NCBI GenBank assembly: GCA_009829735.1
Contig: CM020619.1
Location: 20,589,816 to 20,653,815 of the forward strand
Direction: 5' to 3'
DNA length: 64,000 bases
Source of the DNA: Pyropia yezoensis
Taxonomy: Eukaryota > Rhodophyta > Bangiophyceae > Bangiales > Bangiaceae
Part shown: positions 12,927 to 48,761 of the stretch, piece by piece
Numbering within the stretch: the first letter of the stretch is position 1
Layout: each line of letters begins with the position of its first letter
The notes under the pieces: model-generated
Seen by the model: the letters and a program-made list of their open reading frames with translations, nothing else
Databases searched by the model: none
Told to the model about the DNA's origin: nothing
Translations under genes and position numbers: made by a program

Positions 12927-15374
12927 ATGTCCTATCCCCAGGTGCTTGAAGAGGAGGAAGACCTCCTGATCGGGGAGGAGATGGAGGACGACGCGCCTGT
13001 CGGTCCCGACGCCGCGCGTTACGGGGTGAGCTCGTCTGACGACGACGAGCCTGCGGTGTCCGTCCGTCTGTCGGCCGGAGGACTGTCGTCCGTGTGCAGC
13101 GGCACGACGGTGCCGTCGGCCGGAGGTCAACCCGGCGGTCAACCGCGCGTGGCGGCTTCTACCCCCTCTCTGCCGGCTGCCCGGATGGAGCCTGGTGCCG
13201 GTGCCGGCTCACCGCAGCTACCTCAAGATGGTCCGCCCTGAGGCGGAGGTGGCGACCCGCAGCCGACTCCGGCTGGTCAAGGTGGTCCGGGTGTCCGGGC
13301 GGTGACTCCTCGAGGCGGTCCCGACGTTGACGCGGGTGGTGGTGGCGGTGCGACACCCGGTGCGGCGGGTCAAGACGGTGCGGGTGTCCGCACGGCTGGG
13401 GCTCCGGCTCCGGAGGCTGTCCAAGTGCCTTCCCCTTCCGAGGCGGGGGCTACGCCGACGGGTGGTGCCGGCGCCGGTACCATACCTGCGGTGCCGCGGG
13501 TGTCGAGCGGTCAAGACGCTCCTTCTCCCATGGCGCTTGACACCGGGAGTTACTCCGGGCGGGCGCCCGCCCTTCTTCTTCCTCCTCGGCCTCGTCCATC
13601 TCCGACGTCGGCCCCTCTGCCGGTGGTGCGTCCCCCGGCGCCCCCGATTCTTCCTGGTCCTGCCCGGGTTGCCCCGTTGGGTGGCGGCGTCGCCGTGGCG
13701 GCGGGTCAACCCGCCATGTCGAAGTCCGACTTGGTGGCTCGGGTTCGAGGCCTCACGGTGCAAGAGTCGATGGAGTCCGATGGGCGTATGCGGGTGGACT
13801 TCCACCTGGTGCATCCCCGTGGAGAATCCTCCCGGCGCGTCAAGGTGGACCCGAGCTGGGAGCGGGAGTTGGTGCGGCTGGTCAACCAGCCGAACGCGGT
13901 CCGGGTGGAACACCATTAGATCCTGAGTCAGCCGGACGACCGGCATGCGCAGCACTGGCGCACCCGGGTGGGACGGGGTGAGGTCTACCTCGACCCCAAC
14001 TTCGGGGTCTGCGACCTGATTGCCCCTGCGTTGCCGCGGGAGATTGACTACCCGGCTAGTGCTCGGGGGATTGCGGCGGCGGCGGAGCCGGTTGCGTTTG
14101 GGGAGACGGTGGGCAGTACCGGTCGGTATCCCGACTTTGACTACTACCCGAAGGTACCCCCGTATCTGTCGTTGACGGCTCCCTACCCGCCCATGGCGGG
14201 GTTGAAGTCGGCGTCGAGTTGGCGACGTAACCATGGTGTCATGGCGGATGCGTTCCGCACGGATATAACGTGTGCGTTGCAGACCGGCAACGGTCGTGCT
14301 CCGGTATACACTCCCGTGCGCCCGCCGCTATGGCAGGAGGGGTGGGAACCCGCCCCTGCTTTCCGGTTTGACACCGGCTCCTGTCTTCGCTACTTCGGGA
14401 GTGTGTTGGCCTCGCGACCGGTCCACCCGTTGCAGGGTACCTTCACCCTTGAGGTTACCCTCGGGCAGGCTTCATCCTTCTTGCTGTCCGTCCGCCGGCA
14501 GGGTCGCCTGTTTCATCTTCCGACGGGTGTCCGTCGGCACATCGCGCAGTTGGGCGTGGATCTGATAGCCGCCAAGACCGGGTTGGCCCGGGAGTTCGAA
14601 GCCCTGCTGGCTGTTCACGATGCCGTGAACTGGGCTGGGGTGTTGGCCCTTCCCCCGTACCGGGACCCGCAGGCTGGGGCTTCCCCCTTGCCTCGTCACT
14701 CGTTGCGTGTCCGGCGTACTCAGCCGGGTGAGCCCAGTTGCCATGGGTGGGCATCCACCGAGGCTGTTGCTGACCTGGGTATTCCCATGGTTATCCATGA
14801 CCCTCTTCAGGTCCTTGCTCCGTGGTTCGGTAACCCGATGCCGGCGGCGGTTGGCCGTCGTCCCCGAGAGTGGGGCTCTGTTGGTGGGGAGCGTGAGGTG
14901 TCCCGTCGTCGGGCGGAGTACCGCCGTGGTTACGGTGGAGCCCCTTCGGTAGGGTCCTACCGGGCCTCGTATCAGGTGCCACCGGCTCCGGTTGTAGCCG
15001 TGTCGGCTCCTGTGGCTCCTCTGGCTGCGCCAGTGTCACCTCCCGCCCCTGTTCTACATGACGGGGGTCCCCGTCTCTGGCATGAGGGCGTTGACGCCCT
15101 TGTTACCCGCGCAATGCGTGGGGGTCTCTCTGTTAGCTGGGGGGATATCCCCCCAGGTGCTGCGCTGGTTGGGTCAGCGCGTTGCTTCGGTGGCGTGCTG
15201 GACCGCCTCCAGAAAGCTCTGGAGGACGTGGAGGCTGGCCGCAGCACCCTCGTCCAGCTATGCACCGAGGTAACTCGGGTGGTCGACCGTCGTGACGTTG
15301 CCGACCGGTGGAGCACGGAGGTCTACGCGCTTACGCGTGAGTGGCCTCCCTCGGGCAGTGGGTCTACCCACTGA
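12927..15374 (+). pseudogene. Antisense accessory ORF of element A1 (aORF), broken
   Basis: An ORF on the strand opposite gag-pol, lying between the end of pol and the 3' LTR and converging on pol. One plus-strand frame is used throughout, with about two breaks. The N-terminus is acidic (MSYPQVLEEEEDLLIGEE...) and is followed by a Pro/Gly/Ala-rich linker. The central domain contains NHGVMADAFR, CLRYFGSVLAS and RLFHLPTGV (the last near 14509-14527), and a helical C-terminal region has VLDRLQKALEDVEAG. Copy A2 carries the same ORF from 62267. The antisense proteins of elements C and D have related motifs in the same order. Function unknown. Antisense ORFs at this position are known in some plant gypsy lineages such as Grande-type Tat elements. 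Confidence 0.72.
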
Positions 15375-15685
15375 GGAGTGCTATTGTTTGTGCGGGAGAG
15401 GGCCCCGGCAACCCTTATGGTAGCCGGGTAGTAGAGAGTATGAACTCATCCCCTTTGGGGGCATTGCTTGCCTCTGTTTGCTGCCCTGGGGAGTACCCCT
15501 TCTGGCTCAGTGGTGCCTTGCCTCCCGTCCAACTTCTTCCGGTAGGTTCATGCTTGGGGAGGTCATCCTCCCTCACTTGGTGTCTTGGCTTGGGGAGGTC
15601 ATCCTCCCGTGTAAGCTCCCTAGTTACTTCGATATTATCGGAGTTAGCCTTTACCTTTAAGTTAACTTATTAAGGTTCAGGTTTT
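15375..15685. other. A1 convergent intergenic stretch
   Basis: Lies between the stop of the antisense ORF and the hairpin array. It contains two copies of CTTGGGGAGGTCATCCTCCC about 37 bp apart (near 15553 and 15590). No ORF is supported. Confidence 0.5.
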
Positions 15686-15854
15686 ACTTAGTTACCTAAG
15701 CTTAGCTCTACTTAGTTACCTAAGCTTGGTTCGACTTAGAAACCTAAGTCTGATTTGACTTAGAAACCTAAGTCTGCCGTAACCATGTCACACCCTACTT
15801 AGTAGGTATGAGCCACTTAGAAACCTAAGTCTGATTTGACTTAGAAACCTAAGT
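15686..15854. repeat. Array of six short hairpins at the pol/antisense-ORF junction
   Basis: Six near-perfect 16-bp palindromes of the form ACTTAG-N4-CTAAG[T/C] start at 15686, 15710, 15734, 15758, 15815 and 15839. Most are 24 bp apart. Part of the array lies in an 81-bp tandem duplication (units starting near 15735 and 15816). The array sits where the sense pol transcript and the antisense ORF transcript would meet. Confidence 0.85.
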
Positions 15855-15933
15855 CTGCCGTAACCATGTCACACCCTACTTAGTAGGTATGAGCCTCACC
15901 CCCCAACAGCCGAAGTCGGTGTCGGTTGGGTTG

Positions 15934-18900
15934 TTACAGTAGGCGTCGTCGCCTCATGTACGGCATGAGGAGTTGGCGGGGTATATTTGCCGCCTGTTCC
16001 CAGGTGGGTGAGTCGTATCCGACCCACATAACCTTGACGTACCAGGGTCCTGGTAGGTCCGGGTCGGTGTGTCCGACCACGCTCTCTACTTGGTATGGAA
16101 TCCCATCCGGTCCCACCGGGTCATCTGACCGGTGGGTTGTAAGAGCTTCATGTAGCAACCCAGCCGGTACCGGCTGAGGCTGTTCCGGCATCGGAGCAGG
16201 TGTGACATCATTCATGCTGATGCGTTGAATCTCCGTATCGGAGTGTAAGATAACAGAGTGGTCATCTCTGTGGAGGATCTGGTACGGTCCCTTGACCGGT
16301 TGCATAAGCTTGTTCCCTCGGAACTTCTGGTGTCTGATATAGACCCAGTCACCTGTTACCAGGGTTGCGTTGCGCACCCGTAGTCGGGCGTCGAAGTTCT
16401 TCTTATATCGAAGTTGTGTTCTGTCAAGGGCACCCTTGAGCTTAGGAATCATCCACGATAGCTTGGCCAACCAAGCTAGGTGGATGCGTTCGGCGGGTCG
16501 GCCCTTCGGTGTATCATACCGAGTGCACCTGCCGGGTGGCAGCGTCAAGTTACCGACGCCTAGTGGCATGACCCACTCCAGCGGAGCAATGTTTGTGCTC
16601 CGATGTGGCCTGGCATTGTATGCCAGGGTGAGTACGGACAGAAGCCTGTCCCAAGTGTTCGTGTGCTCGGCCACGTAGCACTGTAGCATCTTTACGATGG
16701 TGCGGTTGAACCGCTCCACCTGCCCGTTGGACTGCGGGTGGTAGTCGGATGCCCGACGTGGTTCGATACCGAACATGCCCAGGACCTTAGTGCAGAATGC
16801 CGACGTAAGGTTTGCTCCGTTATCGGAGAGGAGTTGCTTCATGACTCCGTATGCACTGATCCAGTGGTCAACCACTGCGTTCATGATCGTTTATGCCGTA
16901 TCATTCGGGATGGCTGCCGCTCTTGACAGCTTAGTGAAGCGGTCAGACATGACCAGGATGTACCTGTTCCCTTCTTCCGTTATCGGAAGTGGCCCGAGTA
17001 TGTCGATAGCGACTTGCTCGTTGGGCCCATCAGGTGGGAATAGCTTCATGGCAGACGCCCGCCTATGTAGACTCATGCGGTTACGTGCACAGGGGTGGCA
17101 TCCCCTTGCGTGGTCGACCACGTCGACGGCCATTGCTGGCCAGTAGAAGAACCTTCGCATTGCTGCGAACATACGTGAACCCCCCGGGTGTCCGGCTGTA
17201 GGGTTCTCATGTTCTCGTTTCATGACGGCTTGCCGTAAGGACACGGGAACCACGACTTGATGTCGTCCATCGGCGGGTGCCCGCCGGTATATGAGTCCGT
17301 CTTCGTTCTCGGAGAAGATGCCGGCCGTACCGGCCAGGAGGTTAGCACGATGACGTCTACAGTCATCGTCGTTGGCCTGTGCCTCGCGGAAGTCCGCGAG
17401 GGTCAATGGGCACGCAAGGTGTGCCATGGTATGGTCAGCCATACCCTGGGTAGCATTACCCACCATGCACACCGGTACTACCTGGATGTCCTCGTCCACC
17501 GGGCGGGTATCCCCGCTCGGGGTGTCGAGTCGAGACAACGCGTCTCCGAGGTGGTGGGTTGACCCAGCCTTATACACCGTGCGGTAGTCGTGCTCGGCCA
17601 TCTTCAGCCTCCATCGGGCTAGCCTCCCATGGCTATCGGAATCCTTGTCACCAAGGTTGAGGAGCCATCGTAGGGGTTCGTGGTCGGACCTCACGATGAA
17701 CCTGGAGCCCTCCAGGTATGGACGGAGCAGTTGCACTGCCCATATAACTCCGAGGCATTCACGCTCGGTGGCACTATAGTTCCGCTCAGCCGGGTTGAGT
17801 GTCCGGCTGAAGTACCCTACCGGACGTAGGTCCGGGATAACGTTGTCGGTACCTATCAACGTCTCTCCCTGTAACAGGGTGCATCCCACTTGTGTATCAC
17901 ACGCATCGACATCGATGACGAAGGTACCCCGTCTATGCGGTAACGCAAGGACGGGTGGGGCTAGTAGGGCTCGCTTCAGCGACTCGAATGCCTCCTCTTC
18001 GCTAGGCGAAGGGGGTTGGAGTACCTTGGGTAAGGTACTGCTCGTAAGAACCGTTAACGGTTTAGCTATCCGAGCGAAGTCCTTGACGAACCGTCGGTAT
18101 ACATTGCACATTCCCAGGAAGCTCTTGAGCTGCGTCTGGGTGTTAGGGAACCGGGCATCCCGGAGTGCCCGGGTATTGGCTTCGAGTACCCCTAGTTTAC
18201 CAGGGGTTATCTGGTGGCCCAGATACTCGACCGTCTGTTGGAAGAAGGCGCACTTCTTCAGACGCAGGGTTACCCCGGCGTTCCTCAAGAGGGTGAGTAC
18301 CTCGTCAACATGTTGTACATGGTCATCCATGTTACGCGAGAAGACGATGACGTCATCGAGGTACACTAGGCAGTTACGCCACTTCACCCCCAACAGTATG
18401 ATGTCGATAGCCCGCTGGAATGTAGCGGGGGCGTTGGACAATCCGAAGGGCATCCTTAGGAACTCGTACACTCCACTGTGACAGACGAATGCCGTCTTGG
18501 GGATATCCTCGTCCGCCACCGGGATCTGCCAGTATCCGGCATTGCAGTCGATGGTGGTAAGCACCGTAGCCTCCCCCAGGGAGTCGATGCATTCATCCAT
18601 CTTTGGTAAAGGGTATGAGTCCTTCTTGGTAACCAAGTTGAGGCGTCGATAATCGATGCAAAACCGAGGGGTTTGATCCTTCTTCGGCACGATAACGACT
18701 GGGGCACCCCATTCCGACATCGAAGGTCGGATCACCTTAGCTTCACTCATCCTCTTCACTTCTCCATCAACGATCTCTCGTTGCATAGGTCCCGCTCGGT
18801 GCGGTTGTGAGCGGGCGGGTCGTGCGCCTGGTACCAGGTCTATACGATGTTGGGTTGCCCCAATGGTCCCCAAGGCCCCGCCTGTCCACATAACGTCATG

Positions 18901-20100
18901 CTTTCTTAGCATCCGTCGTACCCCTTCGGCTACCGAAGGGGGAAGGTGGTCGAGGTCAGCCTCGGCCAGTGCCTTCAAGGCCTCTTGGTCCTTTGGCGGC
19001 AGGTCCGCCGGAGCCGCCGATGGGTTAGGCTTCCCGTCATCGGGTTGCTGTCGCTCGGTGGTCTCGGCGACCGCCAGTACTTCAAGTGGTTCCACTTGAC
19101 CTTCCTTATCAGGGGTAAGGATATCTCCTTCGTAGAGTTCGGCAATCCCGAGGATAGTTCCCTTCGGGAGGGTGACTGCCTTACGGCGATAGTTCGCCAT
19201 CACTAGGAGGGACGACCCTCCTGCTGGGAGGTCTATGAGACCGTTGGCCATGGTCAACCCATGGCGCTTGTACGTCCGTAGGTTGGACTGGACTCTGCAG
19301 ATGCCTGCGAGGTCGCAGTTAACCGGGAGGACTGTCTCTGACAACGGCTCAAAGCGAGTTCGCTTGGCCAACCGAAGTGTCTTCGGCTCGACGCTTGCGT
19401 ACACCTCAGCCACGTTAACGTGGCTTCCTTGTAGCGTCAGGTCCCTGACGATAGCCGTGTGTCCTCGCTTCGTCCCGTCGGCTTCTTGAAGCTCGACGGT
19501 CCTCCGGCCTGGCCGGATTGCATCAACGTGAACGTTGATGAAGGTGCACCCCAGAATGCAGGGCACCGATAGCGTTTCACATACCAGGAAGTCAACTTCC
19601 GTGGTGAGATCCCCGATGGTAACCTGCAGCGACATCGCTGCGGTCGTACGAATGAGTCGACTATTCGCGTCCTTGATGGTGGGTCCCCGAGTCACTCTGA
19701 CTCGTGGAAGCCACTTGTCCGGGAGGGTATCCTTCCGGATAAGGTTGGGTCCAGCCCCTGTGTCCAGTACAGGGTAGTACGATCGTGTCGACTGGGGGTC
19801 AACCCCCAGTGTGGCTGATACCTTGAAGTTCTCCAAGGTAAACAACACATGTCCTACACCGATATCCGGTGTAGCTCGGGCATCCTGAACAGGGCCCTTG
19901 TCTGGTTCAACGTGACGGGGCTTCCCGTCCTCTCCTCCCAACCTTGGAGGTTGGTCATCAATCCCCTGACGCCGTGTCGTCGGGGCCGGAAGGTGTACCC
20001 GGGGGTTGATGCGGCGTCGGCTCAACCGCGCTCTCCGTGGGGCTTTCCCCGCGGTACTCCGGGGTGGCTTGCTTGGGTAACCCCAGCGCTCCCCGGTCAT
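15934..20100 (-). pseudogene. pol: pol of element A1 (protease, RT, RNase H, integrase, chromodomain)
   Basis: The sense strand encodes an aspartic protease (VLDTGAGPNLIR), a reverse transcriptase (RFCIDYRRLN..., DCNAGYWQIP, CLVYLDDVIVF), an RNase H (FVIDVDACDTQVG) and an integrase. The integrase has a zinc-binding region (GHPGGSRMF...C-x2-C), the core motif DILGPLPI, then LSDNGANL and YHPQSNGQVERFNRT. The C-terminus has a chromodomain-like segment (YVKVMWVGYDSPTWEQ), which marks a chromovirus. The reading begins 9 nt after the gag stop. About one break is present. Confidence 0.93.
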
Positions 20101-20108
20101 CCTTCCTC

Positions 20109-22298
20109 TTACTCGTTTCCCGCCCTTGGTAGGGTGCTGTCCGCCGGGACATCCGGCTGAGGAGGTGCCCCCTCGACGGCCAGTACTCCACCTGGAGCTG
20201 GCTGCCTACCCGGTGCGGGTCCGGGTGCTCGGGCGGGATACCCCCCGGTGGATGCCTTGCGTTGCGCCGCTGCCCGCCGAGACTCCTCGGGGATGAGTGG
20301 GCAGGAAGACACCCAGTGCTGGGGATCCCCACACAACATACACCCGGACGTGCCGGTCCCCCCTTGAGTTCGCATCGGGGTAGCCCCGTAGCTACGGTTG
20401 CCTCCCTCGGGCGCCCGAGTGCCTGCTCCCTGGTAGGCCTTGGGTCCTTGGGTCAACCGGAACATGGACTCCCCCAACCGGTTGGGTCGGCCCGCAATCT
20501 GCGGAGGTGCCTCCGTGCGCACCGCCCATGTTGGCAAGGGTTGGTAAGGGTTACCCGTCACCGGGGAGTACCCCGTAGTCCGCACATACGGGACGCGCCG
20601 TCCCGTTCCTTCGTTGACCTGGAACTGGGTTCCAGCCGGGGCGATGTACGCTACCGTACCATGTTCATCAATCACCGGCGTCGCCGGTAGCAACAGGTGG
20701 CCCTGTTGGTCGACTAGAGGGTCATCCTCACCAATAGGGGTATGTTCGGTCGCCACCAGTACTGGTGCGGCCTTACGTTCCACCTTCTCTTGCCTCGGTA
20801 CCGGGGTAAGACTGGGCTTGCCTCCCTCACCCTTGGGCTTCGGGGCCAAGGCACACTCCGGGTGTAGAACCCGGTAGGCGTCCCCTAGGGACTTGCACAT
20901 ATGCATCAGTCGACTGAAGTTCGTCCGTGCCGTGTTGGCGCCCCGTGCGGATATCCGCACGTAGTTGGGTACTCCTGCGAACAGGATGGCCCGTAGCTCC
21001 CCTTCTCCGAGGAGCTTCCCCAGCTCGTAGTCGACCTCTTGGATCCGGCGTCCAAACATCTCCTCATCCTCCCAGGACTGGGCGGTGGCAGTGCGAAGGG
21101 CCCGATAGTGGTCCTCGCACTTGTCCTCACTGAGGTAGCTGCTCAGCAGCTCCTTCAATATCCCACGGTAATCCATGGGGGTGGCCGCGACCCTCATTCC
21201 CGGCATCGGGGATGCCTGGCGAAGAATGCCTCGCACCCGTTCATCAACAAAGAACGGGAGGATCTTCAGGGCCAGCCCCTCGTTAACGAGCGCCTTGTCT
21301 GCGGCTGCCTTGAAGCTAGTCAAGAAGCCGATGACTGCCAACGGGCGTCCGTTCGGCCCCCCGAACATAGGGACTCCCTTCATAAGGGTCTGCATAGAGC
21401 GGATCGCCCGATGCGACGTATTACGCATCGATTCCGATACGGTGGTAGAGCGGTCCTCCAAACGATAACGTTCCGGAGTAAGAACCGACCGGAAGACCTC
21501 GTTGACGATCTCCGTGTCAGCGTCCTGGATATCCAGTCGCTTAGCCAGTTGATGAGCGAACTCATCGGACTCCATCCGCTTCAGTAGGCTCGCAGCTACC
21601 TGCGCGGTCATAGCTTCCACCACTGAAGATGGTACTTCAGGCGTCGGCACCTCGGGAACCCGAGTTGCCTGGCCTCCTTCGTCGTGGGGGTACTGCGAGA
21701 GGGTACCCCCTCCCCCAATAACCGACTCTCCCCCGGCGTACGTATCCGCCGGGTCGTGTCCGCGGAGTCCGCTTCGGGTGCTCCGAGCGTATCGCTCCGT
21801 GTGACTCCGTTCCAACTCTGCCGACGAGTCGGACCCATACCCCATTGTGTCCGGGGGTTGTCCAGGAGTAGCAACCCCGGGATTGACCCTGGTGGACTCC
21901 GAAAGTAGTCCGGCCGGTTCGAACCGTACCGGTGTGGGAGGAACACGACGGGGTCCCGTCGTGTGCCGTGTTGACATCAACACTGCCATTGCGTCCTCCG
22001 TCCGATCTTGACGGGCGTCGAGCCCGGAAAACCGGGCCTCGATGCGGGCCAATGATGCCATCAGGGAATCCCCTGGTGAAGGAGGCGGCGGAGTGAGGTC
22101 GGTCGACGACAGTTGAGGCGGGCCCCCGCCTCCTGCCGTCCGAGCCGTGCCAAACGTCGATCCGGCACCGGAAAGCATTGGCGTCTCAATGTTATCGATC
22201 GGGTTCCCGATCCCGGTTCCCGTAGTCACCTCCGGAGTCGGCGTCGACGCCGATCCGTCATCTTGAACGTTCCCCGTCTCTTGGGTAGACATAGTCAC
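20109..22298 (-). CDS. gag: gag of element A1
   Basis: An open 729-codon ORF upstream of pol on the same strand. The N-terminal third is Ser/Thr/Pro-rich, followed by a helical capsid-like region (about residues 270-470). A single CCHC zinc knuckle (CMLCGDPQHWVSSC) lies near residue 650. The length and the single knuckle fit gypsy Gag, the structural protein of the virus-like particle that also binds the RNA. It looks whole. Confidence 0.9.
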   Translation of the reverse strand: MTMSTQETGNVQDDGSASTPTPEVTTGTGIGNPIDNIETPMLSGAGSTFGTARTAGGGGPPQLSSTDLTPPPPSPGDSLMASLARIEARFSGLDARQDRTEDAMAVLMSTRHTTGPRRVPPTPVRFEPAGLLSESTRVNPGVATPGQPPDTMGYGSDSSAELERSHTERYARSTRSGLRGHDPADTYAGGESVIGGGGTLSQYPHDEGGQATRVPEVPTPEVPSSVVEAMTAQVAASLLKRMESDEFAHQLAKRLDIQDADTEIVNEVFRSVLTPERYRLEDRSTTVSESMRNTSHRAIRSMQTLMKGVPMFGGPNGRPLAVIGFLTSFKAAADKALVNEGLALKILPFFVDERVRGILRQASPMPGMRVAATPMDYRGILKELLSSYLSEDKCEDHYRALRTATAQSWEDEEMFGRRIQEVDYELGKLLGEGELRAILFAGVPNYVRISARGANTARTNFSRLMHMCKSLGDAYRVLHPECALAPKPKGEGGKPSLTPVPRQEKVERKAAPVLVATEHTPIGEDDPLVDQQGHLLLPATPVIDEHGTVAYIAPAGTQFQVNEGTGRRVPYVRTTGYSPVTGNPYQPLPTWAVRTEAPPQIAGRPNRLGESMFRLTQGPKAYQGAGTRAPEGGNRSYGATPMRTQGGTGTSGCMLCGDPQHWVSSCPLIPEESRRAAAQRKASTGGYPARAPGPAPGRQPAPGGVLAVEGAPPQPDVPADSTLPRAGNE

Positions 22299-22517: not shown

Positions 22518-22880
22518 TGTAGCACAATAAGAATCCGTCGCACGTCCACTCTCAGGGAACACTCACCAAGGGGGATCGGCACCAACGTCACCGGGAGGCC
22601 AAGGTTGCTGTCCTTGGAGCGCAAGCCACGGGACCAAGATGGGAGCCCAAATGGGAGGGGTTTGTTGTTCTACCTTGGCCGGCGGTGGATTCGCCACCGG
22701 CCCCCTCGTTATAAACCCTCGGAGACACTACTAACTACCCTCCACCCCAAGATGCAAGTCCCTCTGGTCATACGTAACTTAAAGATACCGTGACCAGTTC
22801 GGACTCTCAAATTGAAAGTTAAGGATTAGAGGTAGCCCCCCTGATATTAGGGTCACAATACGGACAACCATATTGCTACA
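22518..22880 (-). repeat. 5' LTR of A1 (363 bp)
   Basis: It differs from the 11980-12342 copy at four positions by eye and has the same TG...CA termini. It is followed by the right target-site duplication AGCCG. Confidence 0.93.
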
Positions 22881-23603: not shown

Positions 23604-23944
23604 GAAATCCCTCTCTCACGTATGGGTAGCGTAGTCCACCGCATCCCAGTGCCGGGCACGGGCCACGGCCGCCAACCATCACCACACGGCGGGCGTGTTC
23701 TGGCACCTAGTGCCCTCTGGTCGCCATCCCGGGTCGACGCGAAGTCGGGACCAGGGAGGCTACATAGCTCCCTCCCCAGTCCGGCACGTCCACGGGCCGT
23801 ACCAGGTGCCACCGTGCACAGCCTCGAACACGTCCACACTGGTGCCGAGGTCGAGCGTCTTCACCCCGAGCGCGATCACCTTCTCCAACCCTGCCCCCCC
23901 CCTCCTTCACCTTGACCTTCCCGTTCCCCCGGATTCTGGACGAC

Positions 23945-29505: not shown

Positions 29506-29613
29506 CACAGGCAGCAGGAGGGGCCATCGAGCGCGAGGGAGTCACGGCCTTCTTGCGCTTGCCTTTCGCACGTGATCTTGTAGCCCGGGCAGGCGCGCGG
29601 CTGCCGGCGGAGC

Positions 29614-33206: not shown

Positions 33207-33299
33207 AGATTCGGGTCAAGTGGACCTGACCGGAAGTCGAAATTCACCCGACCCACGATGGTGAAACTTCTGACTTCTGGACGGAAATTCGACTAGGAC

Positions 33300-33706
33300 T
33301 TCCGACATACTAGAGCAGGGTAATGCTGCTGGTATTTGTTTCTTGGGATTTTTGCACGGGAGCCAGACGGATTTCTACGCTTTGAGTTCTTTGCATGTGG
33401 AGTGATATGATTGGTTTGTTTGAGGGTTCATTTTCTGAGTGTTTTGAGGGGTTGCGTGAGCGTGTGAGGAGGGTTGATAAGGAGGGACAGCAAGGCGGGG
33501 AGGGCCCACCTTGGCTGGCCAAGCAAGAAAACACCGTCTGGCTCCGACACATCTTGTTCGTGCCTTGGTGAGTGGACCCGCTCACCACACGCAAGTTCCG
33601 TGTTCGGCTGTGTGGAGGTGCTTGCTTCCGGTGTCCCAAGTTGGGATATCGGCAATACTCCTCTTCCTTCCCTGACTCGGGGTTGGTGCTTGGGAGTACT
33701 GCTACA
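33300..33706 (+). repeat. 5' LTR of element C (left edge estimated)
   Basis: Ends in ACTGCTACA at 33706, the same terminal heptamer as the A-family LTR, followed one base later by the primer-binding site. The start cannot be placed without the second LTR. Confidence 0.45.
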
Positions 33707-33723: not shown

Positions 33724-34008
33724 GGAGAGGATATCGACTTTGGTACCTCCCTTGACCGGAGACGGGACCAAGTTGGCCCCTCTCCCCCTTCGGCACCGAG
33801 ACTTCCGGTGACACGATCGACTCGCCTACGTTCCGAGCGTTCGCTGGGCGACGAGGTTGGCCACCGTGAGTCTTGGTGGGAGACCCGGAGTTTCGGGAAA
33901 CCTCACCGCCTTCCTTGAGGCAGGTGGAGGGGTGGAACGTGCTCTAGGAACTCCCTAGCTGACGATCCCCGACTCTGGACACCGTTTGGTCGTTTTGGTT
34001 GACTCCAC

Positions 34009-35787: not shown

Positions 35788-35825
35788 CCGCTGGGACTAA
35801 GACTGACCCAAAGGCTCCAGCGGTA

Positions 35826-38800: not shown

Positions 38801-39815
38801 TGAGTTACTCGACGTCTGGGTTGCCAGTTATGGCATCCCCGACTCTATCCTTTCGGATAACGGACCACAGTTTGCGTCCGTCCTGTATCAGGGAGTCATG
38901 AAGATGTTGGGGGTGCAGACGAACTTCGCCACCCCTTACCATCCCCAGACTAATGGGCAGGTGGAACGATTCAACAGGACTCTAGTGCGCCAGTTGCGTC
39001 ACTATGTCCATGACCATGTAGTCACATGGGCTCGTTATGCGTCACTACTCGTGACAGCATACAACTCCCAGGTACACAGTAGTACGGGAGAGGCACCGTT
39101 TGCCTTCGTCTGCCCCCGACGACTTCCGTCAGTAGCTGTGGAGCGTCTCACCCAGACTGAGGGTGAGACTTCGACTCAAACACCGAGTCAGGCGAAAGCC
39201 TCCCTACTCCAGAGACGGGAGGAGATGATACCCCTTGTCCGGGCTACTATGGAGAAGGCCCAAGCCCGTTACAAGAGGTACTTCGATGTCCGAGTCAGAC
39301 ATCGTCGCGATCCGCTCCGAGTTGGAGATTGGATTTATGTTAACTCCCACGACAATAAGGGAGGGAAATTGGTCTTCAAGACTCTGGGACCATATCACAT
39401 CCTTAAAACGGATGGACGTCGGTTAACCATCGAGAGTGATGATGGTATCCGGACAATAAATGGGAATCACGCGACTCGCGCACCCGAACCCCCAGAGGGA
39501 GATCCCGCTTGGGAAAGGGCTTTGCAAGCATGGAAAGTCCCATCCTTGCCGACCTCTTCCAATAAGCCATTGGAGGCGGTGTTCGACAAGTTTGTCGGGC
39601 ACGGATATGATGAGTCGGGGCGACTCATGCTCCGAGTCAGGTGGTTCGGGTATGGACCAACTTCCGACACATGGGAGTTTGTAGAGGACCTACCAGTAGA
39701 GAAGGTCCGTAGATACTGCCAGACTGTGGGCATATCTATACGCCGACGTAGCACTCGTACGTCGGGGGATGAAGTCCCTGCTCCAAGTCAGAGCAGAGCG
39801 GCAAGCCAACCATGA
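35826..39815 (+). CDS. pol: pol of element C
   Basis: A single open frame of 1329 codons. In order: protease (VIVDTGSAASLIRE), RT (RFCIDYRKLNERTV..., DCNAGYWQIP, YLDDIIVFS), RNase H (YIVDVDASYDQLGCCLLQ), integrase HHCC domain (HSSPLGGHPGSTRM...CATCAKNR) and the DDE core (AVDLLGPLPRT; LSDNGPQFAS; YHPQTNGQVERFNRT). A C-terminal chromodomain has LMLRVRWFGYGPTSDTWE. All catalytic motifs expected for the family are present. It is separated from gag by a short gap and not fused to it. Confidence 0.95.
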   Translation: MKRVASRSPTHGRVKVLTRPRGVRPRDKAPPQKHDPSRIVSVLVGSNYQVAARLWLQDGYEFTSRVIVDTGSAASLIREDLLPEGTDVSPAGSPEWRMFDVNGGLLPIVGSIALTVCIGFYQTQVNFGVVSNMSVPVLLGTDYLDLHVPAVCGPEGIIRMRNGETVPILRKGRTVSPTTHQPRENSPKGGGSTTHVRVCKGTVVPPRSRTFVRVRTRFRGNGLVSPVDRVYYTHQVQVAWGPMTCGDDQTWWVEVLNTSEEPRRLPGGMKIASISTFEGNVVAVTQQQWEDIGMAGSADQSSSSTAKSPTVHRENIPECLHGRLDELIQKHHKLWNGDLGLIKATEHRIVLKPGARPVRLSPYRMGPDSRELTREQVQRMQDMGVIEPCSSEWASPIVLVPKSDGTMRFCIDYRKLNERTVRDSYPLPRMDDCLDSLGEAQYFSTLDCNAGYWQIPIRKEDRHLTTFTCHCGVYQCTRLPFGLCNAPATFQRAIDLILAGVKWQIALVYLDDIIVFSGTAEEHLSHLDRVFTLLGEAGVTLKPTKCHLFSNEVEYLGHIVRPGRILVNEKNLMAIRRAKFPQTQTQLRSFLGMCNVYRRFVANYAKVSAPLNHLVSSKMPKRLDAPKPPEQEAFDRLRELLCNPPVLAIPRPGAHYIVDVDASYDQLGCCLLQQQPSGEYLPVGYFSKGLSPAQKNYSVTEVEGLGVVWAVSMLRPYIEGRKFLIRCDHKALKWILTTTACTNNRLNRWRLCLAEFDYDVEYRPGPKHAVADALSRIPTDGKDTSPIPEELPHVAVTTRSGTVLDPRMPGMAKLLPVSLDEFVQAQESDKLCRRLRKELDQAQPTRFFLNDNGILCRKGYTQGDKQVVVPKELRKSILQREHSSPLGGHPGSTRMYQTLRKKYYWPSLVADVYGYVAACATCAKNRLMESRQTSSMRLFPATEPFAAIAVDLLGPLPRTPEGYEYLLVMCDRFTKLTRVSPLKDITAVDVLSELLDVWVASYGIPDSILSDNGPQFASVLYQGVMKMLGVQTNFATPYHPQTNGQVERFNRTLVRQLRHYVHDHVVTWARYASLLVTAYNSQVHSSTGEAPFAFVCPRRLPSVAVERLTQTEGETSTQTPSQAKASLLQRREEMIPLVRATMEKAQARYKRYFDVRVRHRRDPLRVGDWIYVNSHDNKGGKLVFKTLGPYHILKTDGRRLTIESDDGIRTINGNHATRAPEPPEGDPAWERALQAWKVPSLPTSSNKPLEAVFDKFVGHGYDESGRLMLRVRWFGYGPTSDTWEFVEDLPVEKVRRYCQTVGISIRRRSTRTSGDEVPAPSQSRAASQP

Positions 39816-39943: not shown

Positions 39944-41551
39944 CTAGCGTTCCATATGGCCACCCCCACCACTATAGGGACCGCCCGACCACGAACCCCC
40001 AGGGTCGTAGGCCGGTAGCGGAGGGGCGTAACCCACTCGGGAGGGCCCCGGAGTGGAAGCACTGGGAGGGGCCCGCCGACTCGCGGACCCATCCCCGTCG
40101 TAAGATAGATGTCCGGAGGTACTCCCTCCGTGACGCGGAAGCTGCTGCTGAGTCGACAGCAGCCGTTGGACAAACTCGTGTCCAACCGCGAGGCGAGTGA
40201 CCTCAGCTGCCAATGACTGTCGCGCCGTGGCTGAGTCGCCCGACGCGAGGAAGTGACTGACACGCCGGGTGACCCAAGCCAACGTGTCAAGGGAGGCCAC
40301 GAGTGAGGCCTCCACCGTGGCGTCATACATGATGGCTCCCAAGTTGGGAAGCATCTCGCCAACGCCACGCGCAATCGGCATGGGTACCGGAGTTCGGACC
40401 CGTAGCGAACCCAACGCCACGTCGGGGAAGGGCTCGAGGAACTGGAAGGGTGGAGCCTGAGTCGGCTCCACACCCCCCGAGGTCGGAGTCGCGACCCGCG
40501 GGGAAGTCGTCGGCACAGCTCGCCCGCGGCTTCGAGGGGCTCCTCGATGAGCACCACGACGAGTCGTCGCCGATGATGTCGCCCACCCAGAGCCAGGGGG
40601 CGACGTAGAGGGAGTAACCCCCTCTGCGTAGGGAAGGGAAGAGTCCCCCAACCCCTCACGCAAGAACAGCTGTCCCTGCACCAGAGTATGGGTGACATGG
40701 ACGAACTCCCGGGGTGGCTCACTCTCCAACCCCGGCTCTGGACGCTTGTTGCGGCGGAGGAAGGGTTCCAGCTGCGCCCAATCGAGTCGATTGTGCAGGG
40801 TGACCATACCCTTAAGGAGGAACGGAGCCAGGTCCCCCGCGCCCAAGGCTAACCAGTGGAAGCCAAGGGTTTCCATACCCTCCACCAGAGCCGGTGGGAG
40901 GTGCCACAGGTAACCCCGATGGACTACATCGGAGTACCAGCCCCGAGCCACCACGACCACCCAGTGCGTGGCGAGGTAGGCGAAGACCCGGTTACCCTCC
41001 GAGCTGGAGCGTAGCACGGAGCCAAAGTAGGCAACGAGGAGGGGGATCCGAGCCGGAAACCCACAAGGTACCTCCACTGTCTCCCACCACCCTGGGAGAA
41101 AAGGGTACTGGTGCTCACGCTCCTCCAGAGGTACGTGGGTGAACTCCACCCGCGACCCGTGGATGAGGAAGCCCGAGGAGCCCCGGAGTCGGAACTCCTC
41201 TCGCACCACGCCGTGTTGGGCGTGGGCGTCCTCTCCGCCCAGGTAGGGACGGGGAAGGGCACACCACTCGGTAGACACAACCGCGTGGGTGTCGTCGATC
41301 TCCTTGTCGCCCGACCCCAAGGCGAGGGAGGTTGACAACGCCTGGACTTCAGGCGCGTCCGCCAGGCAGAGTAGCGCTGGTAGGTCGCAGACCACCCCAT
41401 CAGGTAGAGTCACCTGGTTGGGGTACCGACGAGTCCGGCGGTACCATACGTCGGTCCGCCGTGGCTCGGGGATGATCAAGTAGACATCCTTGAGCTTGCA
41501 GTCGGGAAGCTCCCCGACTGACTTGGGAGGCGCCCAGGCTCGGGGCCCCAT
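39944..41551 (-). CDS. Antisense accessory ORF of element C (aORF)
   Basis: An open 535-codon ORF on the strand opposite gag-pol; its stop faces the pol stop across 128 bp. Motifs shared with the other families, in order: QHGVVREEFRLR (compare NHGVMADAFR in A1), VEVPCGFPARIP (VEIPVGFAPSSIP in D), AYFGSVLRSS (RYFGSVLAS in A1) and GYLWHLPPALV (RLWFLPDLLMV in D, RLFHLPTGV in A1). A C-terminal helical region has WVTRRVSHFLASGDS and QSLAAEVTRL. A Ser/Thr/Pro-rich linker separates the two parts. Upstream of the chosen Met the strand stays protein-like in another frame, so the true N-terminus may be longer. No known domain recognised. Confidence 0.75.
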   Translation of the reverse strand: MGPRAWAPPKSVGELPDCKLKDVYLIIPEPRRTDVWYRRTRRYPNQVTLPDGVVCDLPALLCLADAPEVQALSTSLALGSGDKEIDDTHAVVSTEWCALPRPYLGGEDAHAQHGVVREEFRLRGSSGFLIHGSRVEFTHVPLEEREHQYPFLPGWWETVEVPCGFPARIPLLVAYFGSVLRSSSEGNRVFAYLATHWVVVVARGWYSDVVHRGYLWHLPPALVEGMETLGFHWLALGAGDLAPFLLKGMVTLHNRLDWAQLEPFLRRNKRPEPGLESEPPREFVHVTHTLVQGQLFLREGLGDSSLPYAEGVTPSTSPPGSGWATSSATTRRGAHRGAPRSRGRAVPTTSPRVATPTSGGVEPTQAPPFQFLEPFPDVALGSLRVRTPVPMPIARGVGEMLPNLGAIMYDATVEASLVASLDTLAWVTRRVSHFLASGDSATARQSLAAEVTRLAVGHEFVQRLLSTQQQLPRHGGSTSGHLSYDGDGSASRRAPPSASTPGPSRVGYAPPLPAYDPGGSWSGGPYSGGGGHMER

Positions 41552-42047: not shown

Positions 42048-42547
42048 NNNNNNNNNNNNNNNNNNNNNNNNNNNNNNNNNNNNNNNNNNNNNNNNNNNNN
42101 NNNNNNNNNNNNNNNNNNNNNNNNNNNNNNNNNNNNNNNNNNNNNNNNNNNNNNNNNNNNNNNNNNNNNNNNNNNNNNNNNNNNNNNNNNNNNNNNNNNN
42201 NNNNNNNNNNNNNNNNNNNNNNNNNNNNNNNNNNNNNNNNNNNNNNNNNNNNNNNNNNNNNNNNNNNNNNNNNNNNNNNNNNNNNNNNNNNNNNNNNNNN
42301 NNNNNNNNNNNNNNNNNNNNNNNNNNNNNNNNNNNNNNNNNNNNNNNNNNNNNNNNNNNNNNNNNNNNNNNNNNNNNNNNNNNNNNNNNNNNNNNNNNNN
42401 NNNNNNNNNNNNNNNNNNNNNNNNNNNNNNNNNNNNNNNNNNNNNNNNNNNNNNNNNNNNNNNNNNNNNNNNNNNNNNNNNNNNNNNNNNNNNNNNNNNN
42501 NNNNNNNNNNNNNNNNNNNNNNNNNNNNNNNNNNNNNNNNNNNNNNN
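42048..42547. other. Assembly gap of exactly 500 N
   Basis: A run of 500 N, a round number typical of a placeholder for unknown size. The 3' LTR of element C and the 5' LTR and gag of element D are missing at this point, so the real gap is probably several kb. Confidence 0.95.
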
Positions 42548-42553: not shown

Positions 42554-45500
42554 TTGCTCGTCCTGCGTAAGGAAAACCTCAAGATTAATGCTCGTATGCG
42601 TGTGGGGGATAGCCTCCCCAAGCTGTTACGCCGGTGGTCGACACGGGAGCCGGACCAAGCGTCATCACTGAGAACCTGTTACCTCCGGGCTGGCGGTCGA
42701 CATGCCTGGAGAGCGCCTACCAAGACCCGGATTGTAGACGCATCAGGTCAAACCCTACGACCGCTTGGCCGTCTTCCCGTCGCCATCTATGTCAACAATG
42801 AACCAATGCTTTTTCCCTTTCTAGTAGTCAAGACCTTATCAGTCCCCCTCATCCTAGGCTGGGACTTCCAGAAGCAGCATGTCAAGAGCATCCTACCCGG
42901 AGAAGGAAAGGTGCAGTTCAACCATGGGTTTGTGTCACCAGTGCTGGAGCACTTGGACACCAAGGTTCGTGTGGCCAAGAACCAGAAGGAACGCATCCCA
43001 CCCTCTACGTTGACCCTCATCAAACCGGTGCTCCTACCTCCTCGCTCGGAGACCAAGGTTCAAGTCACGACCCGGACTGCAGGTCAATGCCTGATCTACG
43101 GACGCAAGGAATTTCTGGCGAAACACCGATTATACCTAGCCCACGGACACCACAAGAAGGTGGAGAGGCACACCCCGTTCTCGGTGCTGATCGTCAACGT
43201 GAGCCGGAAGCCAATAACCCTCGCCAAGGGCACTCGAGTTGGTACAGCAGAGCCTTACCGGGGGTCCGCCCGCGCTATGAGCAAGGAAGACCTCTTCAAC
43301 CTGCAACAAGAGCTGGCATCCAACTTGACGGCCTTAGACGTATCTCCGGAACAAGAGCAGGCTGGCCGTACTACTCCGAAGACCGAACAAGCACCGCCCG
43401 GGATGCCGAAGGTCAACCAAGAAAACGTCCCTCTCGACTTGAAGGAGGCACTGGAGAAGCTTCTCCAGGAACATCGGCACCTGTGGTCCGGAGAGCTGGA
43501 CAAGATGGACGCCACCCTACACCGGATTCAACTCAAGCCAGATGCCAAACCAGTGCACATGCACCCATACCGGGCTGGACCTCATCGCCGGGATGAGATT
43601 GAGAAGCAGGTTAACAAGATGCTCAAGATGGATGTTATCGAGCCGTCTGATGGCGAGTGGGCTTTCCCGGTGGTAGTCGTCCCGAAACCTGGCGGTCACT
43701 TCCGTTTCTGCGTTGACTACAGACGCCTGAACGAGATGACAGTCAAGGATGTATACCCGATACCCCGGATGGATGATTGCCTCGACTTTCTCGGTGATGC
43801 CACCCTCTTCTCGACGCTGGATTGTAATGCCGGTTACTGGCAGATCCCTCTGGCTGACGAGGACAAGGACAAGACAACCTTCACGTGCCACATGGGACTG
43901 TTCCGGTGCAAGCGTCTCCCTTTTGGTCTCACTAATGCTCCGGCAACCTTCCAGAGAGCCATCGACATCATCCTGTCGGGGCTAAGGTGGAGAACATGTT
44001 TGGTCTACCTGGACGACATCATTGTTTTCTCCAAGACCCCAGCGGAACACCTGGAGCACCTTCGAGAGGTCCTGGCCCTCCTGTCCAAGGCTGGAGTTAC
44101 CCTCAAGGCCGAGAAGTGCCACCTGTTTGAGACTGAGGTGGAGTACCTGGGGCACGTGCTGAGTCCGGGGGAGCTCCGAGTCAATGAGAAGAACATCAAG
44201 GCCCTCCGGCATGCACGGCAACCTAAAACGCAGACGGAACTCAAGAGCTTCCTGGGTATGTGCAACGTCTACCGCCGGTTCGTACGGGACTACGCTCTGA
44301 TTGCCCGGCCCTTGACCAAGCTTACTAGCAAGAAGCTTCCAGCACAACTCCCGGTGTTCGACGAGAAGCAGACAGCAGCCTTCGAAGAGCTCAAGAAGCG
44401 CCTGACCACCACTCCAGTACTGGCGTTACCCAAGCGGGAGGGCCAGTTTGTTCTGGAGACTGATGCCTGTGGCGTCCAGGTGGGGTGCTCACTACTCCAG
44501 CAGCAACCTGATGGGCACTTCCTCCCGATAGGCTACTACAGTCGCGTCTTGACTCCAGCCGAGAAGAACTATTCCACGACCGAGCGCGAGTGCTTGGCGG
44601 TCGTCTGGGCTTGCTTCCTGTTACGTCCATATCTTGAAGGACAAGAGTTCCTCATCCGGACGGACCACGCCAGTCTAAGGTGGCTGCTATGCATGGACAG
44701 CAGTCAAGGAAGGGTCGCCCGGTGGCGCCTACGCCTTTCGGAGTTCAAGTACAAGGTGTGCACCAGAGCAGGGAGGGAGCACCACTGCGCCGACACCATG
44801 TCCCGGCTGGAGACTCCTGCAGCCGATACCGGTCCTATCCCGGAGGAAATACCTTGCTTCATCCTCCCGAATGTCGGACGTGGCTGGCACGCTCCCCTGT
44901 ACGAGACACCTGACGCTCATCAACCGGTAACCATTCACCGGATGCTGGAGGCACAATTGACGGACCCTCAATGCTTGGAGCTTCGCCACCAAATGGACCT
45001 GAACCGGAACAGTCGCTTCTCCGAGTCTACAGACGGACTCCTGGTACGGGTGTCACCCTTCGATGGGGCAACTCAAGTCTACGTACCCCGGAGCCTACGG
45101 ACTGACATCCTACGCCTGGAGCACTCGTCTCCCCAGGCCGGACATCCTGGTATCAATCGGATGTATGCTTCCATGAGACGACATTATTACTGGGAAACCA
45201 TGGCCAGTGACGTCCATAAGTGCCTGGAGGCTTGTATTTCTTGTGCAAGGAACCGGTTGTCCCAGAGGAGGAAGACTTCTAAGCTACGCCTATTCCCTGC
45301 GGCGGAGCCCTTTGCAAGCTTAAGCATGGACATCCTGGGGCCCCTACCTGAGACCTCCAGTGGCAACATATACCTGCTCATCATTTGTGACCGGTTCTCC
45401 AAGTTCACTCGAGCAATCCCGTTGAGAACCATCACGGCTCTGGATGTCACGTCGGCCTTCTGCGAGTACTGGATAGCTGCCCACGGCCCTCCAGACTCCG

Positions 45501-46498
45501 TCTTAACCGACAACGGTCCCCAGTTTGCATCCCTGTTCTTCCAAGGAGTCTGTGACCTGATGGGCATCAAGAACTTGTACACCACGACGTACCACCCTCA
45601 AACGAACGGCCAGGTGGAACGATTCAACCGGACCCTAGTGGACATGCTACGGCACTACGTGGAGGAGCATCAAGAAGACTGGGACGAGCTCCTGGCTGTC
45701 CTCACTCTAGCCTACAACTCCCGAGTTCACCGGACAACGGGAGTCGCTCCACTCGACTTTGTCACCCCAAGGCGGCTGACCAACTTCTCCCTGGAAAGAA
45801 TACCGGATGGTCTCCAGCCTGCACTGAAGTCAGGTCCCAAGGCGAAGGATGAGTTCCTGGAACAACTAAAGCTCCTGCTCCCAAGAGTCAAGGAGTCAAT
45901 TTCAAAGACCCAGGAGCGATACAAGCGGGACTATGACAAGGGTGTCCGGGAAAAGAACAAGGAACTGGGTGGTGGCGACTGGGTTTTTGTGGACAACCAT
46001 AGCAAGACCCGGGGGAAGCTGGACTCTAAGACGGATGGACCTTATGAGATTCTCAATACGGATGGCTGGACCTTCCTTCTAGACGTGGATGGCTCTCCGT
46101 ACCGGGTGAGCAGCGACCATGTCACCCGAGCTCCACCGCCAAGCCAACGGGACTTGACCCGGCGTAAGCGGACTGCGATACCCTGGCTATCCCAAGAAGA
46201 AGGTCGGGAATTTGTCTACGTCAAGTTTGTCGACCATGCCTGGAGAGATGGACGCCTGTACCTGCGAGTACGCTGGTTCGGCTTTAACCCAGCAGATGAT
46301 ACATGGGAACCCTCAAACCGGCTACCCATCGCGGACGTCTGTGCCTACACGCGACGGAACGGGATCGAGGGCACTCCAGTGGCCAGAGCCGGCAAGATTC
46401 TGGAGTCGGACACGGAGGAGGACCAAGAGGACGGGGCCAACCAAGACCCTCGGGACGAGACGAGCTCACCCGCAACGGATGCGGAACAAGAGGATTGA
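42554..46498 (+). pseudogene. pol: pol of element D
   Basis: Encodes RT (FCVDYRRLNEMTVKD, DCNAGYWQIP, CLVYLDDIIVFSK), RNase H (FVLETDACGVQVGCSLLQ), integrase (GHPGINRMYASMRRHYYW...C-x2-C; DILGPLPET; LTDNGPQFAS; YHPQTNGQVERFNRT) and a chromodomain (LYLRVRWFGFNPADDTWEP). A protease signature, VVDTGAGPSVI, is present at the 5' side close to the gap. About one break is present. RT and integrase are clearly related to those of C and A1, but they form a separate family. Confidence 0.9.
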
Positions 46499-46643
46499 GA
46501 AGAAGGGAACGGGTATATCAAGGATAACACGCAACGCAAGCATGGAACAATCAAGGAAAACAAGCACCCGCTCGAGCAACCCTTCTCTCCGCCTCTTCCC
46601 TCCTCGCTTCTCCCAAGACCCTCACCCTCCTTGCATCCAACTA

Positions 46644-48761
46644 CTACTCCCGGCGCGGACGCTGAGCCGCGGGAGTGTCCTCCGGCGTTGCCTCCGCGGT
46701 ACGACGGGAACCGGAGGAAGACGGGATGACGTAGTGCGGTGGACGCGGCGCATCCCGGTATGACGCCATCGGAGTAGTACCAGTAGTTGCCGGTGGCTCC
46801 CGCTCATCCAGATATGTCCGTCGGCGCCGCTGGAAGCCCGTGAAGGTCTCTGACCACTGCTGGGCCAAGCCATGCCGCGTCAAAGTCGTCAGAAGTTCGC
46901 CAACCACCGGGTTGTTCGACATCTGGCCGCTGTCCGCGCAAGCAAACACCCGGTCGACCACGTCGTTCAAGACGCTGGCGTAAGTACCCAGCACCAGAGA
47001 GGACCCGACGCCTTCAACCTGCACCGGAAGACGACCCAGCTGGTCTTCAATCATGCCGACGTCGTACTGGTCGCATGTTGGACCACCTTGGTTCAGGTAC
47101 CAGTCAGGCACCCGGAAGCGGGTGAGGCGCAGAGTCGGCGCCGGAATCTCGAACCGGCCCGAGGATGACACTACCGGACGGTCCACAACGGCCCCCGAGA
47201 CCGGAGTACCCAACTCCAGCGGAGGCACAGCGCCGCCGGCGTTGGAAGAAGGCGTCCGGGGTAGAGCGGCCGGAGTAATCGGCGACCGCACGGCCACTCC
47301 CAGACTCGCCGCAGACAAGCGCGGTGCCGGAGGAGCTTGAAGTACTGGCACAGCCGGAACAGGGCGCGGACGTGCCGGTGACGGTTCAGGCGAGGCAACC
47401 GGGGCGACAGGGGCAACAGGAGGAAGCGGAGCCGCCGCAGACGCCCGACCGACCGCCGCGACCCATCCCGACTCCTGTACCGGCGGCCCAACTGGCAGAA
47501 GATCAAGGGCGGCCGGAGCAGGAAAGCTACCTAGCTGCGGCCACGCCGGAAGCGGCGTCGCCAGCTGCACCTTAGCCGGAGAAGACTGGTAGACCACCTG
47601 CGCCCAACCGAAGCCATCCCGACGCGGGCGGTTCTGGTCGGCAATCGCGTTCAAGAAGTTCCGGTCATGCACCGGTACCAGACGCCGGAAGTCGATCATC
47701 GCCTGGAAGAGCTCCTTGTACTCCTCGTCCTGGCTGCACAGGAAGTCGACGGTCAACTTGTCGACAATCCAGACCATCAGGAGGTCGGGGAGAAACCAAA
47801 GCCGGTTGGACACCAAGACCTCGTGAAGCCAGTGGTTGGCCGCCAAGACTGTCATCTCGGACGTGTACATCATGTACGGGATTGAATGGAAGAAGCCCTT
47901 GATCGACGCCTGAGTCAAGGCGTCCAAGAAGTACCAGGTGCAAGGGATGCTGGAAGGAGCAAACCCGACCGGGATCTCGACTTCCTGCTGCTGCGGGATG
48001 ACCTTGGGGTAGTATGCCGCCCGGTTGGCCTTGTCCAGCTTCCAGAACTCCTGATGATTGCAGCTCACGATGAAGTCACGCTGACGCCCGCGTCGCTCAC
48101 CCTGCTCCCGTGCCGGCGACAACTTGGAGTATTTCCGGGTCAAGAAAGGCGGCTCCAGAGCGACCATGCTCGGACGGGGGTCGCAGTTCAAGCTTCCCGA
48201 CCCCTTGAGCGCCTCGTCCCAGACCTTGAGCGCCCGGTGGACGTACCCTTCCTCCTCCGGCCACCGGAGAACGGACGCGGACACGCGACGCTCGGTCAAG
48301 GGTAGATCCAGTACCAGCGCGAAGGGGAGATCCTCCAGACGAGCAGCCCAAGAGGAACCCGAGAAGCTCTGGGAGCGGTCTTGTGCCAGGCGCATCTGGT
48401 CCGCCGTATGAAGACGTGCCTTGTCCATCTCGGTCAAGACCCCGCGCTGGAGTTCCTTGCGCCAGAGGTCCATGCAATCCTGCTGGCACTGGGCCGCGCC
48501 GGCGTTGCCGACCACCGTGGAGTAACGCCGGGCCGCCAGAGGGTCCTGCCCAAGAAGCATCTCCGGGAGACCCTCCGGGGGGGCCTCGACCGGGTGCATC
48601 GCGGACGCCGGGGGAACTCGATCCGTCCCCGCCGTGGCGACCGGCGCCGGCACCGACATCCGAGGAACCGGAGGCAGGAGAGGGGCACGACGACCCGAGT
48701 TCTCCTCCGCAATACTCGCCGCCGGAACCACGGGCCCAGCTTGGATCTCGGAACTGGACAT
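46644..48761 (-). CDS. Antisense accessory ORF of element D (aORF)
   Basis: An open frame on the strand opposite pol, 705 codons from the Met at 48761 (the frame stays open to a Met at 49016). The N-terminus is Pro/Ala/Ser-rich (MSSSEIQAGPVVPAASIAEE). The central globular region includes VEIPVGFAPSSIPCTWYF, HWLHEVLVSNRLWFLPDLLM and FRRLVPVHDRNFL. A Pro/Ala-rich linker and a second globular region follow (LRLTRFRVPDWYLNQGG; VLNDVVDRVFACADSGQM), then a basic tail. The motif order matches the antisense ORFs of C and A1 despite low overall similarity. B1 carries a close relative. Function unknown. Confidence 0.75.
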   Translation of the reverse strand: MSSSEIQAGPVVPAASIAEENSGRRAPLLPPVPRMSVPAPVATAGTDRVPPASAMHPVEAPPEGLPEMLLGQDPLAARRYSTVVGNAGAAQCQQDCMDLWRKELQRGVLTEMDKARLHTADQMRLAQDRSQSFSGSSWAARLEDLPFALVLDLPLTERRVSASVLRWPEEEGYVHRALKVWDEALKGSGSLNCDPRPSMVALEPPFLTRKYSKLSPAREQGERRGRQRDFIVSCNHQEFWKLDKANRAAYYPKVIPQQQEVEIPVGFAPSSIPCTWYFLDALTQASIKGFFHSIPYMMYTSEMTVLAANHWLHEVLVSNRLWFLPDLLMVWIVDKLTVDFLCSQDEEYKELFQAMIDFRRLVPVHDRNFLNAIADQNRPRRDGFGWAQVVYQSSPAKVQLATPLPAWPQLGSFPAPAALDLLPVGPPVQESGWVAAVGRASAAAPLPPVAPVAPVASPEPSPARPRPVPAVPVLQAPPAPRLSAASLGVAVRSPITPAALPRTPSSNAGGAVPPLELGTPVSGAVVDRPVVSSSGRFEIPAPTLRLTRFRVPDWYLNQGGPTCDQYDVGMIEDQLGRLPVQVEGVGSSLVLGTYASVLNDVVDRVFACADSGQMSNNPVVGELLTTLTRHGLAQQWSETFTGFQRRRRTYLDEREPPATTGTTPMASYRDAPRPPHYVIPSSSGSRRTAEATPEDTPAAQRPRRE

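Follow-up and report, generated by a model that had tools for sequence, protein, structure and literature searches.

Antisense open reading frames in LTR elements

Some plant elements with long terminal repeats (LTRs) carry an antisense open reading frame (ORF) between pol and the 3' LTR. These ORFs, termed aORF-3R (gene23 of Grande, with counterparts in RIRE2 and Retand), are present in most copies and conserved, according to a 2020 review (PMC7264820) and a 2025 paper on Retand (PMC11963269), both of which give the functions of plant antisense ORFs as unknown. In maize, Grande is reported to encode a nuclear protein in antisense, expressed from a promoter of its own, for which a regulatory role has been proposed (PMC7264820). 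Transposase_28, the domain of the plant antisense ORFs, is reported in the Retand paper in 97% of clusters and from flowering plants only (PMC11963269). Among the papers listed by searches of the open-licence literature, no title or abstract shown describes an antisense ORF in red-algal gypsy elements.

Here we describe such ORFs in the red alga Pyropia yezoensis, starting from a window of 64,000 nucleotides (G000:C2:20589816-20653815). PMC7423979 gives three chromosome-equivalent scaffolds for this species, with 65% GC and 48% repeats, chiefly LTR elements. The genome searched comprises 107,475,971 bases in 11 contigs, with 107.3 Mb in contigs C1-C3. As the first-pass annotation of the window had reported, three gypsy elements carry an ORF opposite gag-pol in the interval between pol and the 3' LTR, at 12927-15374 on the plus strand (element A1), 39944-41551 on the minus strand (C) and 46644-48761 on the minus strand (D). 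These ORFs are coding and under purifying selection and, by sequence comparison, the antisense ORFs of A, C, D and a further family, E, constitute one homologous protein family carried by at least four gypsy families. That this is a real, selected and homologous gene family is hardly in doubt. The idea in that annotation that a single accessory gene family has been retained in several gypsy families is borne out by homology, significant profile similarity, and ratios of nonsynonymous to synonymous change (dN/dS) well below 1.

The antisense ORFs are selected protein-coding genes

The window holds two related pairs of antisense ORFs. Between A1 and its relative A2, the changes at the first, second and third codon positions in the ORF frame number 44, 33 and 98, and dN/dS comes to 0.20 for a stretch of 251 codons and to 0.29 for one of 464; an upstream part, with several indels, gives 0.47. 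Similarly, D and its decayed relative B1 differ by 77, 87 and 150 changes at the three positions, with a dN/dS of 0.39, or 0.29 from codon 96 on. In the other frames the ratio exceeds 1, apart from the complementary one that shares its third positions with the ORF; there it is 0.29-0.51, with 10-22 stops in the frame.

The same constraint is seen across the genome, in copies taken from lists of best-scoring matches, which favour intact copies. The antisense ORF of C has a dN/dS below 0.5 in all 19 genome copies compared, 18 of them without an indel. For A, the ratio is 0.13-0.30 in 26 genome copies, a 27th locus being the window copy itself, and D gives 0.22 against its relative L071. The lowest values belong to E, with 0.03-0.06 in four comparisons that share one reference copy and 0.15 in a fifth, five of 95 listed places having been examined; the four comparisons pooled contain 64 silent and nine replacement changes. 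Under a null model that preserves base change and CpG state, 294.8 replacement changes (standard deviation 9.3) were expected in C and 74.1 (standard deviation 4.8) in A, whereas 232 and 44 were observed; counts this low occurred in none of 500 simulations for either family. The ratios well below 1 that the first-pass annotation had named as support are found in A, C and E, and in D against its relative.

Intactness differs between the window and the genome. The antisense copies of A, C and B1 in the window are damaged, while D is open over 705 codons. The first-pass annotation had regarded each copy as a long ORF, which holds for D; in B1, comparison with D shows six in-frame stops. For A1, the position stands but not the intactness, as frame reading and copy comparison place two in-frame stops at 13239-13241 and 13917-13919. 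The last 468 codons of the A1 ORF are stop-free in 88 of the 91 best-scoring genome matches listed. Stops occur in 13 of 83 listed matches for C, three of 91 for A and none of 95 for E. The position and strand proposed for C are right, but its 535 codons in the window copy start too late: the start codon lies 103 codons further upstream in all nine copies looked at, in a stretch where the window copy has lost the frame. When five C copies were compared with copy L022, 38-59 of 240 bases differed before this start codon, with gaps, vs 7-33 of 309 after it, without gaps. Tandem repeats sit in the stretch before the start codon and may raise its divergence for other reasons.

One protein family in at least four gypsy families

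The motifs noticed in the first-pass annotation recur in one register: QHGVVREEFR in C corresponds to NHGVMADAFR in A, YFGSVL is found in both, VE[VI]PxGF is shared by C and D, and LWHLP, LFHLP and LWFLP occupy the same place in C, A and D, respectively. BLASTP relates C to D at an E-value of 1e-8 and C to A at 1e-4. Family E was found when a C-D-A profile picked ORFs at loci L044 and L041 (E-values 3e-23 and 1e-22) among 2846 ORFs; both lay in flanks fetched for other reasons. By BLASTP, the E protein matches C at 5e-46, A at 3e-10 and D at 2e-8.

Profile comparison, which the first-pass annotation had proposed as a check, places D and A in the family above all shuffles and natural ORF decoys. 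A combined C and E profile scored 47.6 against the D family, where 300 shuffles reached at most 26.2 and 103 natural ORFs at most 28.6, and a profile of C, E and D scored 48.3 against the A family (at most 24.5 and 33.6, respectively); the D and A profiles take in copies read across damage. Single-family hhalign comparisons of A were weak before C, E and D were combined (A-C 0.045, A-D 0.095, A-E 0.0026). Further, the C and E profile listed B1, at an E-value of 1.6e-5, but not D itself. The shared core corresponds to residues 143-261, approximately, of the C protein. Identities between families are 41-64% for pol, with E represented by part of pol only, vs 23-37% between antisense ORFs, as measured for the five pairs that align in a single register, and the antisense gene therefore evolves faster than pol. 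C and E are closest in both genes (64% over 448 residues of pol, 37% for the antisense ORF) and form the only firm sister pair.

The genes are numerous, with at least 83 genome matches for C, 91 for A and 95 for E among the best-scoring candidates. In E (loci L065-L070), most of the 95 matches listed are identical in score and have an open frame of 724 codons, as after a very recent burst. Exact matches to a reverse transcriptase (RT) motif pattern number 2599 genome-wide, against none to its control; among 100 matches listed, the RT variants of E, A, D and C number 38, 25, 10 and 3, the variant taken as E being assigned from geometry. In the first 2.85 Mb of contig C1, the RT motif lies on the opposite strand at 2.5-3.1 kb for five of six listed antisense-ORF matches. 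For the sixth, at C1:1560541, no RT motif is among the matches listed. The arrangement of antisense ORF, gag-pol and 3' LTR is seen in full in A, through another copy with both LTRs in C, and by strand and position only in D.

Searches of Pfam, NCBIfam and PHROGs gave no curated family match above cut-off for the antisense proteins, only weak sub-threshold hits, and nothing was found in the PDB by sequence for the C and E proteins. A match of the D protein to a Rieske subunit in the PDB (best E-value 0.0048, query 474-555) and one of the C-D-A profile to mS26 (PDB, E-value 0.6) are weak and were not taken as homology. Viral contigs held no relative of the C or D protein in a search that finds close relatives only.

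Two further candidates were considered. The antisense ORF of an element at L072, which borders on an A element, is not picked up by the profile, and its standing as a fifth family (G) is a lead only. An ORF at 28192-29541 on the minus strand, 449 codons long and with a YFGS motif, scores as a decoy (22.7 vs 48.3) and was rejected as a member. It belongs to a diverse family of its own with at least 83 genome matches, several with open frames of 600-1100 codons; two members of that family had no match in Pfam.

Role of the antisense protein

The full statement, that the antisense ORFs are the gene family described above and encode a regulatory or nuclear accessory protein, is one we hold with slightly better than even confidence. 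The nuclear or regulatory role alone is the most likely role by inference, but as a prediction it is tentative and falls somewhat below even. The coding and selection tests, the homology, the antisense geometry at five of six places, the lack of a transmembrane-like stretch, the basic tail of E, whose last 150 residues have a pI of 11.6 and arginine runs, and the nuclear protein reported for Grande count in favour of the full statement. The protein probably helps the elements multiply. Transcription of the gene would start at an antisense promoter within or beside the 3' LTR. The product, predicted to be soluble, may influence how its own element is expressed or passes through its nuclear phase, with transcription, the state of the chromatin and the integration complex as possible targets; such action has been proposed for plant antisense ORFs. 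The protein may act with a preference for the locus that encodes it, or for close kin; this is an argument, not data, drawn from the packaged sense RNA, which cannot be translated into the protein, and from the strong selection on each lineage's own copy.

Several observations weigh against this statement. A and D alone are not significantly similar by single-sequence comparison (best E-value 0.018; another of 0.014 lies in a different, proline-rich register), and the link between them runs by way of E and C. Constraint is weaker than on pol in the pairs measured: dN/dS is 0.39 for the antisense ORF vs 0.26 for pol and 0.25 for gag in C copy L036, 0.32 vs 0.11 and 0.24 in C copy L038, and 0.29 vs 0.16-0.18 for pol between A1 and A2. 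The pol comparison of C copy L037 (0.79) was excluded because C pol aligned there to an adjoining A element, most of the pol of L037 itself having been deleted; the antisense ORF of this copy was retained. Further, a basic tail is clear only in E, the tails of C, D and A having pI values of 8.4, 5.4 and 8.0, and two AlphaFold models (mean pLDDT 32.7 and 30.7) are too poor for fold comparison.

Long ORFs may arise by chance in GC-rich DNA, where stop codons are few, and yield no product; the window, at 42-82% GC, is full of long ORFs on both strands. However, the third-position bias, the dN/dS in the right frame, far below 1 in all comparisons made, and the homology across families place the antisense ORFs beyond chance, as do the simulations in C and A, and this explanation, already refuted by the selection tests, is scarcely credible. 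Alternatively, the antisense transcript itself could matter, through double-stranded RNA or promoter interference, with the protein secondary. PMC7264820 holds both possible in plants, but the constraint here is at the protein level (64 silent vs nine replacement changes over the four E comparisons with one reference copy), which makes a chiefly transcript-level effect decidedly improbable. The gene could also have been exchanged recently between elements, or captured from the host, instead of being inherited with pol. Four families are few and only C and E are a firm sister pair; however, the ranking of the antisense genes follows that of pol, with C and E closest in both, and no known domain was found, host genes outside elements not having been separately searched. 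We consider such a history quite unlikely.

Two other roles for the protein were weighed. An envelope-like protein for movement between cells, suggested in the first-pass annotation, would suit a gene that is placed, as env is, between pol and the 3' LTR. Yet the gene is on the strand opposite gag-pol, and no transmembrane-like stretch was found in four proteins, the C protein being scanned without its first 103 residues: the top 19-residue mean hydropathy is only 1.23-1.54, against a threshold of 1.6. This role is not supported and is very improbable. A capsid-like or other structural protein beside Gag would be in keeping with the basic tail of E and with the two low-confidence models, both of which place helices in the core and close to the C-terminus, a proline-rich stretch separating the two regions. 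However, when scored with the family profile, the gag ORF of C ranks with the decoys (19.2 vs 48.3), and models of such low confidence offer no fold likeness to draw on; a structural role is unlikely.

A bolder form of the regulatory reading, which we put forward as doubtful, is that this accessory family without known relative is an antisense, replication-relevant and standing part of gypsy elements far from flowering plants, has an origin separate from, or much older than, that of the plant Transposase_28 genes, and acts as a locus-directed activator or anti-silencing factor. Such action would explain a dN/dS of 0.03-0.06 in a gene that is untranslatable from packaged RNA. Family E, with many near-identical copies and a strongly selected protein, offers a clean place to test antisense ORF function.

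Elements and other features of the window

A1 is complete in outline but damaged: besides the two stops in its antisense ORF, there is a third in pol. On the minus strand it has a 5' LTR (22518-22880), a gag-position ORF without Pfam match (20109-22298), a pol running from protease to integrase by Pfam (15934-20100) with an in-frame stop at 16891-16893, a site across which copy L073 is open, and a 3' LTR of 363 bp (11980-12342, TG...CA) that is 98.9% identical to the 5' LTR. The antisense ORF lies within the approximately 3.6 kb (12343-15933) between pol and the 3' LTR. Between this ORF and pol, at 15687-15853, are six CTTAGNNNCCTAAG palindromes (12 strand matches vs 0.35 expected), which could be protein-binding sites or hairpins near the end of the antisense transcript; in A2, palindromes of this type are fewer and degenerate. 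A2 itself comprises an LTR (61317-61679) and the start of a decayed, A1-related antisense ORF that runs off the window (61317-64000, plus strand). The D-related B1 ORF lies on the plus strand at 23768-25945, in pieces at 23768-24355, 24524-24985, 24989-25276 and 25280-25945.

Element C, on the plus strand, has a 5' LTR (33168-33706) matching the LTR at both ends (541 bp) of another C copy, a gag-position ORF (34003-35784) with a weak zinc-knuckle match (20.0 bits vs a cut-off of 20.8), and pol (35775-39815). D has pol at 42566-46498 on the plus strand, and its gag and 5' LTR were not seen within the window. The 3' LTR of C is absent from the window, where a run of exactly 500 N (42048-42547), which may be a scaffold gap or a withheld stretch, separates C and D. 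The pol proteins of A, C and D match the RT, RNase H and integrase families of Pfam. Weak chromodomain matches at the end of pol score below the Pfam cut-off of 25.1 in C (16.7 bits) and D (20.4 bits), and none is listed for A. The placement of these elements among the chromoviruses in the first-pass annotation, for which a chromodomain at the integrase C-terminus would speak, is tentative. Elsewhere, long ORFs contain tandem repeats at 5226-5909 and 7427-8410, whose lengths of 114 and 171 bp are divisible by three, and the region 52000-57000, at approximately 71-82% GC, has many overlapping ORFs and short repeats.

Comparison with known antisense genes

The algal ORFs share the antisense place between pol and the 3' LTR with plant aORF-3R, but their proteins lack a Transposase_28 match and represent a different protein family by all tests made. 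C, D, A1, E and an open copy of A were compared with the Transposase_28 (PF04195) profile, and no match appeared at E-values as high as 10. A genome-wide search gave none either, but the control genomes of that search also stayed without a match. The conserved G, P, L, P, N and F at their published spacing are matched at no more than three of six positions in C, A and E, and at four in D, a number equalled by 67 of 500 shuffles. The aORF-3R trait of many conserved copies is seen in C, A and E, their dN/dS being close to, though somewhat above, the values for pol and gag. The interval between pol and the 3' LTR spans 2,933-6,566 bp in the Retand lineage, where it also holds antisense ORFs; that of A1 is alike in spacing only, which does not speak for kinship.

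Outside plants, the fungal gypsy element Boty, named in PMC7264820, has an antisense ORF between pol and the 3' LTR and is likened here by position alone. Retroviruses of the human T-cell leukaemia virus (HTLV) type have a protein gene on the opposite strand near the 3' LTR, according to PMC7264820 and PMC11963269; in the algal proteins no known domain was found, and the algal ORFs are known here from sequence alone. Collectively, antisense ORFs at this position are of a known kind, while the protein family described here appears to be new as far as the tests reached, as do the absence of Transposase_28 (by two tests), the weak chromodomain-like tails on the carrier elements and how strongly the E protein is selected. 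That the algal family is distinct from plant Transposase_28 raises the question of whether such antisense genes arose once or several times.

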